This document shows, piece by piece, positions 1 through 5,970 of a DNA stretch of 64,000 bases. Position 1 is the first letter of the stretch. Each line of letters starts with the position of its first letter. The notes under the pieces were generated by a model. It made no database searches and was not told where the DNA came from. It saw only the letters and a list, made by a program, of their open reading frames with translations. This DNA is from Pseudomonas sp. gcc21 (GTDB lineage Bacteria; Pseudomonadota; Gammaproteobacteria; Pseudomonadales; Pseudomonadaceae). The stretch is from assembly GCF_012844345.1 (NCBI RefSeq), contig NZ_CP051625.1, forward strand, positions 248,001 through 312,000, written 5' to 3'. Position numbers and translations under genes: made by a program.

Positions 1-46
1 GGCCGCAAAGGATGCAGCACGCTGGCTGGAACATAATCGTCGGTGA
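1..46 (+). CDS. C-terminal end of an unidentified protein (partial)
   Basis: The reading frame starting at base 2 gives AAKDAARWLEHNRR and then a TGA stop at 44-46. The rest of the gene lies upstream of the window, so the product cannot be identified. The residue pattern is compatible with the end of a real protein, and the 300 bp after it has no competing gene. With only 14 codons visible this could be chance. If real, it converges on rdgC. Confidence 0.3.
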   Translation, partial: AAKDAARWLEHNRR

Positions 47-207
47 TCGTGATGACATTGGCGCCCGGTTGGTTCAAATAGGCTCTCAGCGTAGTTATTG
101 AAGAGTTTTTCTGGTGTTTGAGGGTTGACATTGTGCACAGCGGGATAACGAGCCCAAGTTATATACAGTTAAAGACTTATAACGGTAGCAATTGGGCTTG
201 ATATTCG

Positions 208-220
208 TAACGTATTGATT
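208..220 (-). promoter_or_regulatory. Candidate IHF binding site
   Basis: TAACGTATTGATT fits the reverse form of the IHF consensus (YAA-N4-TTGATW) with no mismatch. It lies in an AT-rich stretch 85-97 bp from a three-box DnaA array. Such matches also occur by chance in AT-rich DNA. Confidence 0.35.
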
Positions 221-236
221 TTAAACGATAAAATAG

Positions 237-255
237 ATGATCAAATTTTGATCAT
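237..255. promoter_or_regulatory. Perfect 19-bp palindrome, candidate Fis site
   Basis: ATGATCAAA and TTTGATCAT flank a single central T. The inner 15-mer GATCAAATTTTGATC (239-253) fits every position of the classical Fis consensus GNtYAaWWWtTRaNC. It lies between the IHF-like site and the DnaA-box array. It also contains two GATC sites. Confidence 0.4.
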
Positions 256-304
256 TCTGACTCGGCCGCCCGCCTTCTGTGCATCGGGAGAGGTTATCGA
301 GAAG

Positions 305-339
305 CTACCCACAGAGTTGTCCACAGAATCTGTGGATAG
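305..339. promoter_or_regulatory. Three-box DnaA-box-like array, copy 1
   Basis: CTACCCACA (305-313, plus), TTGTCCACA (317-325, plus) and TGTGGATAG (331-339, the minus-strand form of CTATCCACA) resemble the DnaA box TTWTNCACA. Offsets are 12 and 14 bp. The same three-box arrangement recurs at 2773-2807. The inner two boxes form the palindrome TCCACAGAATCTGTGGA. A T-run follows at 341-345, but the one-base loop makes a terminator unlikely. Confidence 0.5.
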
Positions 340-348
340 CTTTTTCAG

Positions 349-1266
349 TCAGATTCCCTGTGGAATATCCTCACCGCCCAGCGCCGTTGTCAGTGCCGGA
401 ATCAGTTCGCTGAGCGTTTTTGACATGATGATGAATGTGGCATCCAGCTGACTCGCCATATCGTCTCCGCCTTGGTCGTCAACTTCATCCCGTAGCAGTT
501 CCTCGAAACGCAGGCGCTTGACTGTCAGTTTGTCATCAAGTGTCAGGACAAGCTTGTCATGCCAGGCCATGGTCAACTGGCTGACTTGTTTGCCGACCGT
601 GAGGTGCTGTTGTATTTCTTCGCTAGCCAGATCCTGGCGTTTGCAACGTATCACTCCACCGTCTTCCCCTGTGTCGCGCAGTTCGCACTCGTCCAGAACT
701 ACCAGTCCCTCCGGCGCTTCGCCGTTTTTCACCCAGTCGGTCATGGCTGCAGCCGGAGCCATTTTCACGTTCATAGGCCGAACCGGAAGGCTCCCGGTGC
801 ATTCCCGGAGAAGGCTGAGCAAGTCCTCGGCGCGTTTACTGCTAGAGCTGTCCACGGCAATCCAGCCTTCGGCCGGTGCGATACAGGCAAGCGTAGTCTG
901 GGTGCGAGTGAAAGCGCGGGGAAGCAACGACATGACGATTTCGTCCTTCAGCGTGTCGCGCTCCTTCTTGTATATCTTGCGGGCATCTCTGGCTTCGATT
1001 TCCTCAACTTTTTCTGCCAGCGCATCCTTGACGACGCTGCCCGGCAATATGCGTTCTTCCTTGCGCATGGAGAGCAACCAGTAGCCTTCTGCGACCTGAA
1101 GAAGGTTTTCGGAGTGTCTGCCGAAGGGGGTTGTCCAACCTAGCGTATGTGTCTCCTGGCTGGCGCAGGGACGAGCAGGGCGCTGTTCCAGCGCTGTGAG
1201 TAATTCGGTTTCGCCAAAGGGGATGTCTTGGCTGAAGCGGTAGAGAAGAAGATTACGAAACCACAT
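349..1266 (-). CDS. rdgC: Recombination-associated protein RdgC
   Basis: RdgC is a ring-shaped, non-specific double-stranded DNA-binding protein that limits RecA activity and is needed for growth of some recombination mutants. The product from the internal start is 305 residues, close to the E. coli protein (303), and begins with the family's typical [12 protein letters not shown] longer reading to 1317 would add 17 atypical residues, so the ATG at 1264-1266 is preferred. The conserved WTTPFGRHS region and the [16 protein letters not shown]-terminal part are present. It stands alone, divergent from the tRNA-Val/tRNA-Asp pair and convergent with the partial gene at the window edge. Confidence 0.93.
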
Positions 1267-1431
1267 TATGCAGTCCTTGGTTACCTGTACGTTTGGCCGG
1301 CCGGGCATATTGTTCATCGCACCGGGGCACGAAGCCGGGCAATATTGCCTGACAGCGCGGCTGTGAACCAGTCTTCTCGGGGGCTACGAGTAAGATATTG
1401 AAAAAGAGTGAATTTATTTTCAAAAAAGGTG

Positions 1432-1460
1432 TTGCCAGAAGGTAAAAAGCTGCCTAGAAT
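1432..1460 (+). promoter_or_regulatory. Sigma-70 promoter of the tRNA-Val/tRNA-Asp pair
   Basis: TTGCCA (1432-1437) and TAGAAT (1455-1460) are separated by 17 bp and end 22 bp before the first tRNA base. A GC-rich stretch follows the -10, as is usual for stable-RNA promoters. Confidence 0.7.
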
Positions 1461-1482
1461 GCGCCCCACTTCGAGAGCAAAC

Positions 1483-1558
1483 GGGTGATTAGCTCAGCTG
1501 GGAGAGCATCTGCCTTACAAGCAGAGGGTCGGCGGTTCGATCCCGTCATCACCCACCA
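1483..1558 (+). tRNA. tRNA-Val(UAC)
   Basis: A complete 76-nt cloverleaf with encoded CCA. The acceptor GGGTGAT pairs with ATCACCC (1548-1554). The anticodon loop of CTGCC-TTACAAG reads TAC, and the T-arm has GGTTCGATCC. It is followed 13 nt later by tRNA-Asp and is probably co-transcribed with it. Confidence 0.97.
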
Positions 1559-1571
1559 CTCGAGGTTACGC

Positions 1572-1648
1572 GCAGCGGTAGTTCAGTTGGTTAGAATACC
1601 GGCCTGTCACGCCGGGGGTCGCGGGTTCGAGTCCCGTCCGCTGCGCCA
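1572..1648 (+). tRNA. tRNA-Asp(GUC)
   Basis: A complete 77-nt tRNA with encoded CCA. The acceptor GCAGCGG (1572-1578) pairs with CCGCTGC (1638-1644), and the discriminator is G as expected for Asp. The anticodon loop CTGTCAC gives GTC. It is the second gene of the tRNA pair. Confidence 0.97.
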
Positions 1649-1796
1649 TTTTTTACCTCCCCCCTTGTTGTAACCCGTTCCATATTACCTTCTTCTTTGC
1701 TCAAACTTTGCCAGCCAGCCGGTAGATTGGCTTGTATTCCCCTGTTAAGCTTCCTGCTTTATTTCCGCCCGATAGGGCTTGTCAATTGAGGTAAGC

Positions 1797-2552
1797 ATGA
1801 AGCGTAATCTGCTGGCAGCAGGCGTTGCCCTGAGTATTCTCACTCTTGTTGGTTGTGGCGGCGACAAGGAAACGGAAATCGACATCAGCACCCCAATTCA
1901 GCAAGCGTCCTATGGTATCGGTCTGAACATGGGCGAGAGCCTGTTACAGGACGGTCTAGACGACATTGATCCCAATGCGCTTGCCCTGGGTATGCAGGAC
2001 GCTCTGTCCAAGCAGCCACCTCGCGTGGGTGAAGAGGAGCTTCGTGCCGCTTTCACCGAGCTGCAGAGCCGCGCTGAGGAAAGGGCTACGGCGCTGGTTT
2101 CCGAAACGCGAGAAGCTAACGACAAGTATCTTGCCGAGAACGCTGAAAAAGACGACGTCATCACTACCGAGTCCGGGCTGCAATATGAGGTGCTGGAGTC
2201 TGGTCCGGAAGATGGCCCCCAGCCTGCTGCCACCGATACGGTATCGGTGCACTACGAGGGCAAGTTGCTGGACGGCACGGTATTCGATAGTTCAATCAGC
2301 CGTGGCGAGCCTGTTGATCTACCTGTGAGCGGTGTGATTCCCGGATGGGTAGAAGCGCTACAGATGATGCGTGTGGGCGATAAATGGCGCGTGACCATTC
2401 CGAGCGATCTGGCTTATGGCGAGCGCAGCCCAAGCCCTGTCATACCTCCAAACTCCATTCTGGTGTTCGAAATGGAACTGTTGGGTATTGATGAAGCCGA
2501 CGCAGATGTCGACGCTGACGATCAAGCCGCCGAAACGGCTCCCGCCGAGTAA
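1797..2552 (+). CDS. FKBP-type peptidyl-prolyl isomerase, outer-membrane lipoprotein (Mip/FkpA-like)
   Basis: A prolyl cis-trans isomerase that probably assists folding of envelope proteins. The chosen ATG at 1797 follows a GAGG ribosome site. An upstream in-frame start would add six residues before the signal peptide. The 251-residue product has a signal with lipobox LVGC, placing the lipidated Cys at position 20. It then has an FKBP N-terminal dimerisation domain (about 28-125, QQASYGIGLNMGESL) and an FKBP catalytic domain (about 140-235) with VSVHYEGKLLDGTVFDSS and LAYGERSPSPVIPPNSILVFE. An acidic Ala/Asp tail of about 20 residues ends the protein. The domain order is that of Mip and FkpA. 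The lipid anchor makes a membrane-attached form likely. Confidence 0.92.
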   Translation: MKRNLLAAGVALSILTLVGCGGDKETEIDISTPIQQASYGIGLNMGESLLQDGLDDIDPNALALGMQDALSKQPPRVGEEELRAAFTELQSRAEERATALVSETREANDKYLAENAEKDDVITTESGLQYEVLESGPEDGPQPAATDTVSVHYEGKLLDGTVFDSSISRGEPVDLPVSGVIPGWVEALQMMRVGDKWRVTIPSDLAYGERSPSPVIPPNSILVFEMELLGIDEADADVDADDQAAETAPAE

Positions 2553-2570
2553 TGTCAAAGTAACACTTCC

Positions 2571-2607
2571 GAGCCCCGCTGCAGACGTGTCGGGGCTCTG
2601 GTTGTTA
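2571..2607 (+). terminator. Hairpin after the FKBP gene
   Basis: GAGCCCCG (2571-2578) and CGGGGCTC (2591-2598) form an 8-bp GC-rich stem 18 nt after the stop. The downstream T-tract is weak (TGGTTGTT). It is a probable terminator for the FKBP gene. Confidence 0.6.
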
Positions 2608-2929
2608 CCGTTATGCACATTCTTAAGTAACACTCAAGCACGTTTCCCTTCCTTCCGCCTGTTTCCAGACGAACTGTAAAGCACTGATTTATAAAGCTTT
2701 TTGTTTGATCAAAATTCACCCATTTCGACTTCGGCCTAGTTTAAACGGGCGTTTGCCACGGTTTCCCATACCTTGTTCACAGACTTATCCACAGATTATG
2801 TGGGTAACCCGTCACGTTTCGTTAATGCACGGTTCGAGTGGGGATGATCCGCTAAACCGCGCGCGTCAGGATTGCTCAGATAATCCGGAGCCAGCCGCGA
2901 GTTGGGTTACTGATATCATCGAGTTCCGG
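2608..2929. other. Gene-free stretch before the tandem repeat
   Basis: No plausible gene is visible. Short open frames here lack ribosome sites and have no recognisable protein character. An AT-rich patch at about 2680-2720 precedes a three-box DnaA-like array (2773-2807). The stretch ends where the tandem non-coding repeat begins. Confidence 0.5.
2773..2807. promoter_or_regulatory. Three-box DnaA-box-like array, copy 2
   Basis: TTGTTCACA (2773-2781, plus), TTATCCACA (2785-2793, plus; the perfect E. coli R-box) and TGTGGGTAA (2799-2807, minus-strand TTACCCACA). The offsets of 12 and 14 bp are identical to the array at 305-339. The spacers have different sequence (GAC and GATTA here, GAG and GAATC there), so spacing and orientation are conserved rather than the whole segment. 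No clear IHF or Fis match flanks this copy. Confidence 0.5.
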
Positions 2930-3040
2930 GCGGCTTGGTCGCGCATCGCGTGAGGCAGAAATTAAAACCGCTTCCCGTCTTGCTATCAGACGACTCCCAT
3001 ATTCATGCGAAGCGAGGCGGAAGGGCTGAGCCGACCGTGC

Positions 3041-3058
3041 GATGACAGGGATGTCATC
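3041..3058 (+). repeat. Hairpin A of repeat copy 1
   Basis: GATGAC (3041-3046) and GTCATC (3053-3058) form a stem around the loop AGGGAT. The same 10-mer ACAGGGATGT recurs 14 bp on at 3068-3077. The loop can pair, with one G-U wobble, with the loop GTCCCT of hairpin B at 3264-3281. Confidence 0.6.
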
Positions 3059-3263
3059 GACGAGCTTACAGGGATGTACTTGCAGCGTGTCGGGGCAGCC
3101 CTGCCGGTTCGCGTCAGCTGACTTCGGAACACAACCAGAAGAATGGTTGAATTGCTTAAGCTGTTTGGATTACGTGGATTTGGCCGCCGATATGGCCGGA
3201 GCAGGCGCCCGCCAGCTGTCAGGACTGCGTAAGACGCCGTGAACCCGTCCCTGGGGGCTTGGC

Positions 3264-3281
3264 GAAAACGTCCCTGTTTTC
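3264..3281 (+). repeat. Hairpin B of repeat copy 1
   Basis: GAAAAC (3264-3269) and GTTTTC (3276-3281) form a stem around the loop GTCCCT. This loop is the reverse complement of AGGGAC, the loop sequence of hairpin A in copy 2, and wobble-compatible with copy 1. Confidence 0.6.
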
Positions 3282-3308
3282 AACACTTGCTCCACCCTGA
3301 CAGCCGGC

Positions 3309-3677
3309 TGGCTTGGTCGAGCATCGGTATAGCGCAGAGACAAAGAGCCCCGATCCGACCTATCCGGCAACTCTATACTTTCCGCGAAGCGAGGCGACAG
3401 GGTTGAGCCGACCGTGCGATGACAGGGACGTCATCGACGAGCTTACAGGGACGTACTTGCAGCGTGTCGGCGCGGCCCTGCCGGCTCGCGGCAGCTGACT
3501 CCGCGTCAGAACCAAACCAATAGTGCATTGATTGCGCTGTGTGAGATGTTGTCACCGAATGGCGGGGCAGTTCGCCCGCCACCTGTCAGGACTGCGCAAG
3601 ACGCCATGAACCCGTCCTAAGGGCTTGGTGAAAACGTCCCTGTTTTCAATACTTGCTCCACCCTGGCAGCCGGCTGG
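3309..3677. repeat. Tandem non-coding repeat, copy 2
   Basis: The second unit, offset by about 366-377 bp from copy 1, with long blocks of near identity separated by a divergent middle. It carries hairpin A (GATGAC-AGGGAC-GTCATC, 3418-3435) and hairpin B (TGAAAAC-GTCCCT-GTTTTCA, 3629-3648). Where copy 1 has ACAGGGATGT twice, this copy has ACAGGGACGT twice (3422-3431 and 3445-3454). The inverted form ACGTCCCTGT occurs once in each copy. It ends with the junction GCCGGCTGGCTT that also begins the unit. Confidence 0.75.
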
Positions 3678-3760
3678 CTTGAGCGGGCATTGGCGTGAAG
3701 TGGAGTTTAAAAGCGTTCCGCTTTCGGGGCTTCCTCGCGGCAGCTGACCTCGGTATTACG
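3678..3760. repeat. Degenerate fragment of a third repeat unit
   Basis: After copy 2 the unit's starting motif recurs (GGCTGGCTTGAGCGGGCAT), and a later GCGGCAGCTGAC matches the 3480-3500 part of copy 2. The hairpin-bearing core is missing. This looks like a decayed or deleted third copy running up to the prc terminator. Confidence 0.45.
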
Positions 3761-3797
3761 AACCCAGCAATTGGCTGCAGACCTTTGAAAGGCGAAT

Positions 3798-3834
3798 GCA
3801 AAACCGCCAGCGTCCTTTGGGAGACGCTGGCGGT
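3798..3834 (-). terminator. Rho-independent terminator of prc
   Basis: ACCGCCAGCGTC (3803-3814) and GACGCTGGCGGT (3823-3834) form a 12-bp stem with an 8-base loop. On the minus strand it is followed by a short T-run (TTTTGCATT). It lies 28 bp beyond the prc stop. Confidence 0.8.
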
Positions 3835-3861
3835 CAGGTTGCTGCTGTTGCGGTTGTTATG

Positions 3862-5970
3862 TCAGCTGGCGGCTGCTACTTGCTCATGCAGGCGAAGCAG
3901 GTCTATCAGGATATGGCCTGTTTCGGCGAGGAAGGGGTCAGTTTCATCGTCTTCTTCATCCTGCTCTGCAGTCAGCGCAGAAATCCCCTGTTCAAGTAAC
4001 GGGTCGTCTTCCTCGAGCGAGGTTATCAACTCTTCACCACGCGCCGCCCGCCGTTTATTTTCCAGCTCAAGCAGTTGTTTCTCGAACTTATCCTTCTGCT
4101 CACGACGCTTGGTTTCATTCAGAGGCAGAAACTGCTGTTCCTTCATCGTGCGATTCAGTTCGATACGCGCCATGGTATAGGCAAAATCGGGATCCTTCGC
4201 AGCGCGCTTCTGATGTTGCTCGTTCAACGGTTCGATGAGTGGCCCAAGTTGACCTGCCATACGGTAGCGCGCTGGCGGGATGGTGTCCCAGGGCAGGGCG
4301 CGGGGAAGATTGCTTTCGCCGATTTCGGCCGTTTCCATCAGCGAGGGAAACTGTATGTCAGGAATGACACCGCGGTTCTGCGTGCTCTGGCCAGACACAC
4401 GGTAAAACTTGGCGAGCGTAAGCTTCAATTCACCGTGATTCAGCGGCTGAATGGATTGCACGGTGCCCTTGCCAAATGTAGGTTCGCCTATCACCACGGC
4501 GCGACCATAATCTTGCATGGCGCCTGCAAAAATCTCAGAGGCCGATGCGGATAACCGGTTGACCATCACCGCCAGCGGGCCGGTGTAGGTCGAGCCGGAT
4601 TCCGGATCATCCAGCACCTGCACCTGTCCCTGCGCATCGCGCACCAGTACGGTCGGGCCCTGATCGATGAACAGGCCGGTCAGCTCGGTAGCCTCCTGCA
4701 GGGAGCCGCCACCGTTGTTGCGCAGATCAAGTACGATGCCGTCGACTTCTTTCTCTGCCAGCTCACCCAGTAATCGACGGACGTCCCGTGTCGTGCTGCG
4801 GTAGTCCGGGTCGCCACGGCGATAGGCTTTGAAGTCGATATAGAAGCCGGGAACCTCGATGACTCCGATGCGGTAGTCCTTGGTGCCTTCCCGGACATCC
4901 AGCACCTCGGCTTTGGCCGCTTGGTCTTCGAGTTTCACAGCTTCGCGGGTCAGCTTGACCTGGCGGCTGGTCAGATCGGTAGTCGGGTTGCTGGCCGGTA
5001 TCACTTCAAGAGTCAGGCTGGAGCCCTTCGGTCCGCGAATGAGTTTTACAACCTCATCCAGACGCCATCCTACGACGTCCACCATTTCACCTTTTTCCTG
5101 CGCGACGCCGACGATACGGTCAGCGGGCGAAAGCTGCTTGCTTTTCTCGGCGGGGCCGGCCGGCACCAGCCGAACGATCTTGGTGTATTCATCATCACTC
5201 TGCAGTACCGCACCGATTCCCTCCAGTGACAGACTCATATTGATGTCGAAGTTTTCCGCGTTCTCGGGCGACATGTACTGTGTATGCGGGTCGAATACCT
5301 GGGCGAACGCGTTGATGTAATTCTGGAAAATGTCTTCGCTGCGAGTTTGGGACAGGCGGGTCTGCTGACTTCTGTAGCGTTTCTCAAGCAGCTCTGCGAT
5401 CGCATCGGTATCGCGTCCGGCGAGTTTCAGTCGAAGGACTTCATCCTTGATCTGGCGGTACCAGAGCTCCTCGAGTGCAGTCTTGTTAGCCGCCCACTCT
5501 GCATCTTCACGGTCCAGGCGAATCTGCTGGTCGCTTTCGAAGTCCATATCTTCAAGCCCTTGGTGCAGCAGGCTCAAAGCATAAATCACACGCTCGTTGG
5601 CGCGCTGGATCTGCGTGCGGTGTATATCAAAACCAACGCTGAGATCGCCGCTGAGAAGCAGGTCGTCGAGATTCACTCTGTGCTTTTCAAACGCCTGGAC
5701 ATCCTCTGCGGTAAACAGGCTGCGTTGCGGATCAAGCTGCTTCAGATAGGTGTCGAATATCTCACTGGACAGTGCATCATTCAGTTCGATCTTGTTGTAA
5801 TGATGGCGACGGAGCAGTTCGACAGTATTCAGGCTGGCGATGCGCTGCTCGCGGGTGGGTTGCAGGCTCTCCACGTCAAGAACCGGGAGTTTCTCGGCCG
5901 CGTATACACTGCCGCCGAGGGTCAGCAGTGCAACCAGGCAGGTATTGCGCAGGGGTTGAGGGAGTCTCAT
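3862..5970 (-). CDS. prc: Periplasmic carboxyl-terminal (tail-specific) protease Prc/AlgO
   Basis: An S41-family serine protease that degrades periplasmic proteins from their C-termini. In Pseudomonas the orthologue (AlgO) takes part in processing envelope-stress and alginate regulators. The 702-residue length is normal for the family. A signal peptide (about 1-24, ending VYA-AEK) is followed by an N-terminal helical region, a PDZ domain (about 240-330), the S41 domain (about 350-560) and a basic, charged C-terminal domain. By comparison with E. coli Prc, the catalytic pair should be Ser476 in NRLSASASEIF and Lys501 in PTFGKGTVQ. It is divergent from the quinone oxidoreductase and has its own terminator, so it is probably monocistronic. 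Confidence 0.95.
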   Translation of the reverse strand: MRLPQPLRNTCLVALLTLGGSVYAAEKLPVLDVESLQPTREQRIASLNTVELLRRHHYNKIELNDALSSEIFDTYLKQLDPQRSLFTAEDVQAFEKHRVNLDDLLLSGDLSVGFDIHRTQIQRANERVIYALSLLHQGLEDMDFESDQQIRLDREDAEWAANKTALEELWYRQIKDEVLRLKLAGRDTDAIAELLEKRYRSQQTRLSQTRSEDIFQNYINAFAQVFDPHTQYMSPENAENFDINMSLSLEGIGAVLQSDDEYTKIVRLVPAGPAEKSKQLSPADRIVGVAQEKGEMVDVVGWRLDEVVKLIRGPKGSSLTLEVIPASNPTTDLTSRQVKLTREAVKLEDQAAKAEVLDVREGTKDYRIGVIEVPGFYIDFKAYRRGDPDYRSTTRDVRRLLGELAEKEVDGIVLDLRNNGGGSLQEATELTGLFIDQGPTVLVRDAQGQVQVLDDPESGSTYTGPLAVMVNRLSASASEIFAGAMQDYGRAVVIGEPTFGKGTVQSIQPLNHGELKLTLAKFYRVSGQSTQNRGVIPDIQFPSLMETAEIGESNLPRALPWDTIPPARYRMAGQLGPLIEPLNEQHQKRAAKDPDFAYTMARIELNRTMKEQQFLPLNETKRREQKDKFEKQLLELENKRRAARGEELITSLEEDDPLLEQGISALTAEQDEEDDETDPFLAETGHILIDLLRLHEQVAAAS

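Follow-up and report, generated by a model that had tools for sequence, protein, structure and literature searches.

Two probable DARS2-type modules with a pseudomonad layout in the genome of Pseudomonas sp. gcc21

The genome of Pseudomonas sp. gcc21 is a single contig of 3,983,233 bp, and the window analyzed here is the stretch of 64,000 nucleotides that covers positions 248001 to 312000. At the beginning of the window, a plus-strand gene for a TPR lipoprotein, which is weakly BamD-like and scores under the cut-off of the BamD model, ends at about position 46, and rdgC, on the minus strand, ends at position 349. An initial annotation of this DNA had described the gap beside rdgC as convergent, which it is, and had listed within it a mismatch-free IHF consensus, a perfect palindrome carrying the full Fis consensus, and three DnaA-box-like 9-mers in plus, plus, and minus orientation at 305 to 339. 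All of these sites were found again. The inventory was incomplete, however, as it missed a further DnaA box at 131 to 139, the exact spacing of 3 and 5 bp between the three 9-mers, and a second array of sites at 2611 to 2807. The first array, referred to here as module 1, and its neighbor comprise the following features.

131..139, plus strand: distal DnaA box TTGTGCACA, 165 bp from the core edge, a possible analogue of the DARS2 accessory box
208..220, plus strand: IHF consensus TAACGTATTGATT (TAAnnnnTTGATW, 0 mismatches), 84 bp from the core edge
237..255, no strand: 19-bp palindrome, perfect around one central base, containing the Fis consensus
239..253, no strand: Fis consensus GnnYAnnnnnTRnnC, inside the palindrome, 51 bp from the core edge
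305..313, plus strand: core, box III equivalent CTACCCACA, 2 mismatches to TTWTNCACA
317..325, plus strand: core, box II equivalent TTGTCCACA, 1 mismatch to TTWTNCACA, 3 bp past box III
331..339, minus strand: core, box I equivalent CTATCCACA, 1 mismatch to TTWTNCACA, 5 bp past box II and head to head with it
349..1266, minus strand: rdgC (NCBIfam RdgC models)

The distal box of module 1 sits within a longer string, TTGACATTGTRCACA (window positions 125 to 139), that is present in 23 of the 36 rdgC-side modules described below. A second array with the core geometry of module 1 lies about 2.5 kb away. This module 2 spans 2611 to 2807 and occupies the gap between the gene for an FKBP-type peptidyl-prolyl isomerase and prc, which is likewise convergent.

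1800..2552, plus strand: FKBP-type peptidyl-prolyl isomerase gene (NCBIfam), neighbor of module 2
2611..2619, plus strand: distal DnaA box TTATGCACA, a perfect match to the consensus, at 153 bp from the core edge
2677..2689, plus strand: IHF-like site TAAAGCACTGATT with a single mismatch, at 83 bp from the core edge
2707..2721, no strand: Fis-like site that departs from the consensus at one position, at 51 bp from the core edge
2773..2807, plus strand: core, composed of TTGTTCACA (2773-2781, plus), TTATCCACA (2785-2793, plus), and TTACCCACA (2799-2807, minus), with gaps of 3 and 5 bp

The core boxes of module 2 are better in sequence than those of module 1. A perfect Fis consensus was sought in module 2 of the window and was not found. 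Genes for tRNA-Val and tRNA-Asp lie between rdgC and the FKBP gene (1483 to 1648). These two tRNAs were the sole matches in an Rfam search of positions 1 to 3900, which gave no other known RNA, and in a comparison with plasmids the best 20 of 71 records matched the tRNA stretch only.

The boxes of both cores are arranged in the order III-II-I with gaps of 3 and 5 bp. The cores of E. coli DARS1 and DARS2 read plus, 3 bp, plus, 5 bp, minus, and both arrays here agree with them exactly in order, orientation, and gaps. Passages of the DARS literature give this spacing, with box I opposite to boxes II and III, as a common feature of DARS1 and DARS2 (PMC5742627) and describe boxes I and II as joining ADP-DnaA molecules head to head (PMC8682772). 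The initial annotation had called the cluster DARS-like and had left its box order to be compared with that of DARS1 and DARS2; the identity now found supports its reading of a candidate DARS.

A 35-nt core pattern, allowing up to 3 mismatches, was composed after both arrays and the E. coli cores were known. It matched twice in the window versus 0 times in 100 dinucleotide shuffles, and four times in the whole genome, where a reversed-pattern control gave 0 matches. Single DnaA boxes are at chance level in the window, where the plain consensus finds 3 with 2.34 expected. In E. coli, the pattern fitted the DARS1 and DARS2 stretches with 2 mismatches each at best, the datA region with 5, and the oriC region with 9, a separation obtained with a pattern that was designed with the DARS cores in view. 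The dnaA/oriC stretch of Pseudomonas sp. gcc21 itself gave 8 mismatches at best and hence no match.

E. coli DARS2 lies between rppH and ygdT, upstream of mutH, with its core at NC_000913 2969135-2969169. Its flank has IHF sites at 58 and 74 bp from the core and a Fis consensus at 110 bp; further out, at 176 bp, is a perfect DnaA box, which we take to be box V. As in the modules described here, the IHF sites are on the box-III side of the core and the Fis consensus is on that same side, and the 74-bp IHF site shares its orientation with the 83- to 84-bp sites of Pseudomonas sp. gcc21. A predicted IHF site at a fixed box-III-side distance is seen at 84 bp in module 1 and, more weakly, in module 2, and an accessory DnaA box follows beyond IHF, at 165 and 153 bp, respectively. 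These distal boxes point like boxes II and III, which is opposite to the orientation of the E. coli box. The order of the sites also differs. DARS2 runs core, IHF, Fis, whereas the modules here run core, Fis (51 bp), IHF (84 bp), distal box, so that the predicted Fis site is between the core and IHF, unlike in E. coli. The initial annotation had invoked IHF and Fis after the example of DARS2; both sites are indeed present, but in reversed order. According to a section of PMC4245941, the essential FBS2-3 of DARS2, part of a published set of FBS1-6, are located beyond the IHF sites, and an excerpt of Kasho 2014 states that shifting the DARS2 IHF sites by 5 to 10 bp lowers activity. In light of that sensitivity, the pseudomonad layout would either work with a geometry of its own, or the palindrome would bind a factor other than Fis. 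In some Pseudomonas arrays (L126-L128), a related middle sequence departs from the Fis consensus, and some doubt about Fis remains.

The genomic setting is different as well. DARS2 has its mutH-side neighborhood, whereas the modules here adjoin rdgC and FKBP/prc and, in contrast to E. coli, lie within 2.5 kb of each other. Published DARS2 homologues were chosen partly by similar position, as described in a portion of PMC4245941; the modules here, with their different neighbors, may or may not share descent with DARS2. In terms of distance along the replichore arm, DARS2 is at 41% and DARS1 (bioD-uvrB) is at 66%, the latter compared to 65% here. A passage of PMC4585315 states that DARS1 needs no protein factors, whereas the modules here have predicted IHF and Fis sites.

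Conservation was investigated in 37 genomes of the strain's genus, taken to be Halopseudomonas, all of which contained core-pattern matches while the controls gave none. The rdgC-side core was present in 36 of the 37, with no core beside rdgC in the remaining genome, G019. FKBP-type cores, recognized by core sequence and with the FKBP neighbor confirmed in three genus loci, were likewise found in 36 of the 37 genomes searched, the exception being G015, a genome that is 81% complete. Among 36 distinct rdgC-side sequences, the Fis consensus was at exactly 51 bp in 35, an IHF site (up to 1 mismatch) was at 78 to 92 bp in 35 (shuffle mean, 0.2), and a distal DnaA box (up to 1 mismatch) was at 145 to 175 bp in 32 (shuffle mean, 1.5), the shuffles being a control that ignores kinship and that is complemented in part by the other-side control used outside the genus. 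The initial annotation had proposed conservation downstream of rdgC in relatives as a check on its reading, and this check came out in its favor. The 30 distinct FKBP-side sequences all had a distal box at 145 to 175 bp (shuffle mean, 1.8), and a perfect Fis consensus was at 50 to 51 bp in 23 of them, but only 10 had an IHF site with up to 1 mismatch.

Box I is invariant across the 36 module 1 sequences, which were selected with that box ending. Mean pairwise identity is 0.94 to 0.96 for the core boxes, partly from selection by pattern, and 0.46 to 0.54 for the spacers. The Fis blocks have values of 0.70 (module 1) and 0.58 (module 2), and the IHF blocks have values of 0.57 (module 1) and 0.40 (module 2, no better than the spacers), these being ungapped figures, so that 1-bp IHF shifts lower the values for the IHF blocks. 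The case for an IHF site is therefore strong in module 1 but weak in module 2. A second IHF-like site (up to 1 mismatch) at 108 to 116 bp from the core was seen in 15 of the 36 rdgC-side modules, which recalls the paired IBS1-2 of E. coli DARS2; it is absent from the window.

The distance between the rdgC-side and FKBP-side modules is 2.4 to 2.6 kb in 19 genomes and 39 to 83 kb, on a single contig, in 5 genomes, and the two are on opposite arms in G008 and G035. In the remaining 11 genomes, either the two modules fall on separate contigs or only one of them is present. The wider distances and the opposite arms indicate that the modules can separate and yet both be kept. With dnaA as a proxy for oriC, both modules are at 52 to 67% of the replichore in 10 genomes, consisting of nine single-contig genomes and G035, for which the largest of three contigs was taken.

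At the level of the order, core-pattern matches were found in 359 of 391 genomes, with 0 from the reversed control among the matches listed, and at the family level a core match with up to 2 mismatches was found in 68 of 69 genomes. Some order-level matches are not DARS-like: two 3-mismatch matches are near dnaN (L134 and L136), and several genomes have clusters of matches. From the matches listed, 124 loci outside the genus were picked by core match, making this a nonrandom set, and 121 were usable after one was dropped for a short flank and two as duplicates. IHF at 82 to 88 bp was found on the box-III side in 67 of the 121 and on the other side in none, a DnaA box at 150 to 172 bp in 74 versus 8, and Fis at 48 to 52 bp in 35 versus 0. 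IHF and the DnaA box occurred together on the box-III side in 49 of 121. As the two flanks of every locus share one genome, this asymmetry is not a matter of kinship alone. None of the three flank sites was found in 23 of the 121 modules, among which are L117-L119, located on the FKBP side in three named Pseudomonas.

A like core by the FKBP gene is present in three Pseudomonas genomes and one Stutzerimonas genome. The same genomes have a second array beside an rmuC-like gene. Arrays of DARS geometry in this position were seen in Pseudomonas and Stutzerimonas at L126-L129 and L237, and in two named Pseudomonas 19 and 22 kb separate the rmuC-side array from the one by FKBP. The rmuC-side arrays of Pseudomonas (L126-L128) have the distal box and neither IHF nor Fis at the thresholds used. 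IHF at 84 to 85 bp was also found in one of two Aeromonas loci (L112) and in two Photobacterium loci (L114 and L124), members of a different order. The core of the Photobacterium loci is like that of E. coli DARS2, and they have IHF at 84 bp, as here, and, in reverse orientation, a further DnaA box at 185 bp. Their sites (84 and 185 bp) are about 10 bp further out than those in E. coli (74 and 176 bp), which is near one helical turn. That DARS2 is conserved beyond E. coli was already known, from homologues in Vibrio cholerae, Shewanella denitrificans, and enterics, going by the legend to Figure 8 of PMC8682772.

We consider both modules to be probable DARS2-type DnaA-reactivating elements in a pseudomonad layout, with Fis and not IHF next to the core, a reading drawn from sequence comparison and from analogy with E. 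coli. Besides the conserved sites and spacings, this genome has genes for DnaA, for both IHF subunits (IhfA and IhfB), for Fis, and for a DiaA-like protein. Fis and the two IHF subunits score above curated NCBIfam cut-offs, and DnaA is 72.8% identical to the part of the E. coli protein compared (389 residues), with R227, R285, L290, and R334 conserved. The DiaA homologue, with 58% identity, scores 260 bits against a DiaA cut-off of 352 and is above the cut-off for the sister family, phosphoheptose isomerase, which leaves its role uncertain. Going by E. coli, one would expect DnaA binding, nucleotide exchange with release of ADP, and a role in the cell cycle and its timing. ADP-DnaA would occupy boxes I and II in a head-to-head manner and also box III, behind box II. 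On the box-III side, a Fis dimer at 51 bp and a bend made by IHF at about 84 bp would together shape the DnaA complex such that ADP leaves. The apo-DnaA released would then bind ATP and become competent for initiation at oriC. The distal box would probably nucleate further DnaA, either as an assembly aid or as an off-switch at high ATP-DnaA, like E. coli box V.

A broader proposal, which we regard as evenly balanced, is that there is a Pseudomonadales-specific class of DARS2. Its members would combine the core with Fis at 51 bp and with IHF at about 85 bp, to which a second IHF-like site at 111 to 115 bp is sometimes added, and would have a forward box at 153 to 169 bp. The two copies kept by nearly all Halopseudomonas genomes, often in tandem 2.4 to 2.6 kb apart and mid-replichore, might form a dosage-sensitive DnaA recharging station.

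The modules could instead be a DnaA sink or a datA-like element that titrates DnaA or, with IHF, promotes ATP hydrolysis, leading to less initiation. E. coli datA combines DnaA boxes with IHF, as here, its make-up being given in passages of reviews as DnaA boxes plus one IHF site, and the direction of the nucleotide switch is not readable from sequence alone. We nevertheless find a datA-like function unlikely. The exact three-box geometry of DARS is present in both modules, whereas datA, which has the opposite effect on DnaA, is without it, the best fit in its region being the 5 mismatches given above. A Fis site at a fixed place suits DARS2, whereas the descriptions of datA, in the portions available, name IHF only, and the modules are mid-replichore, whereas datA is at approximately 20% of the arm.

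In E. coli, DnaA and Fis also act as regulators at promoters, which would favor a role of the sites in transcription control of a neighboring gene. Both module gaps are convergent, however, and, in keeping with the initial annotation's view of the module 1 gap, no promoter-like match was found within it (46-349). Positions 1 to 3900 contain 2 such matches (shuffle mean, 1.6), one inside rdgC and the other at 1432-1460. Moreover, arrays of the same geometry adjoin different genes in relatives (rdgC, FKBP, and rmuC-like), and we judge control of a neighbor to be very improbable.

An intrinsic terminator for the converging genes is an equally poor candidate in place of a DARS2-type element. In module 1, box III and box I together make an inverted repeat, after which the plus strand has T residues, and in the window the 9-bp arms pair except at one position, with TTTTT after them. 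Yet six or more T among the 9 bases past the repeat were found in only 5 of 36 module 1 sequences on the plus strand and 0 of 36 on the minus strand, and the arms differ in 11 of 36 sequences. In module 2, with the same box geometry, the arms differ at 1 to 4 positions in 30 of 30 sequences, and a terminator would leave IHF, Fis, and the distal box unexplained. Our terminator scan considered loops of up to 8 bases and was blind to the box III/I repeat; the terminator was rejected on the poor conservation of T tail and pairing and on module 2 being without the repeat. Least probable of all is a cryptic or secondary replication origin, which AT-rich DNA, an IHF site, and DnaA boxes might resemble in their parts, but which was rejected on skew and dnaA position: GC skew is positive in all eight 8-kb bins of a window that covers the right side of module 1 only, with no GC-skew switch and no dnaA/dnaN neighborhood, dnaA with adjacent DnaA boxes is 1.29 Mb away, and the genome's own dnaA/oriC stretch has no core-pattern match.

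With regard to previous work on DARS, a review remarks in one sentence that many proteobacteria have conserved sequences similar to DARS (PMC10380432), and a passage of PMC5742627 describes the spacings of DARS2 as conserved in E. coli-proximal beta- or gammaproteobacteria. The DARS studies considered here deal with E. coli and compare its sequences with those of enterics, Vibrio, and Shewanella (PMC8682772). Our literature search found no paper on DARS in Pseudomonas within the text available to it; the 2009 founding paper was outside its scope, and the words DARS and Pseudomonas both occur in PMC10218098, PMC4451416, PMC5397419, and PMC6784150. Mapping these candidate elements across Pseudomonas and its order, where Fis and IHF have naturally changed places, could reveal the spacings that the reactivation complex needs, and the Pseudomonas elements provide targets for cell-cycle work in laboratory P. 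putida.

The remaining two of the four core-pattern matches in the genome of Pseudomonas sp. gcc21 are weaker arrays of the same geometry on the other replichore, at C1:1975170-1975204 and 1975594-1975628 (L110 and L111). They are 424 bp apart and lie between RlmG-like and LonB-like genes, both of which score under the model cut-offs. Pairs resembling these, 250 to 428 bp apart, occur in many members of the genus, with the neighbors inspected in L110, L111, L138, and L139.
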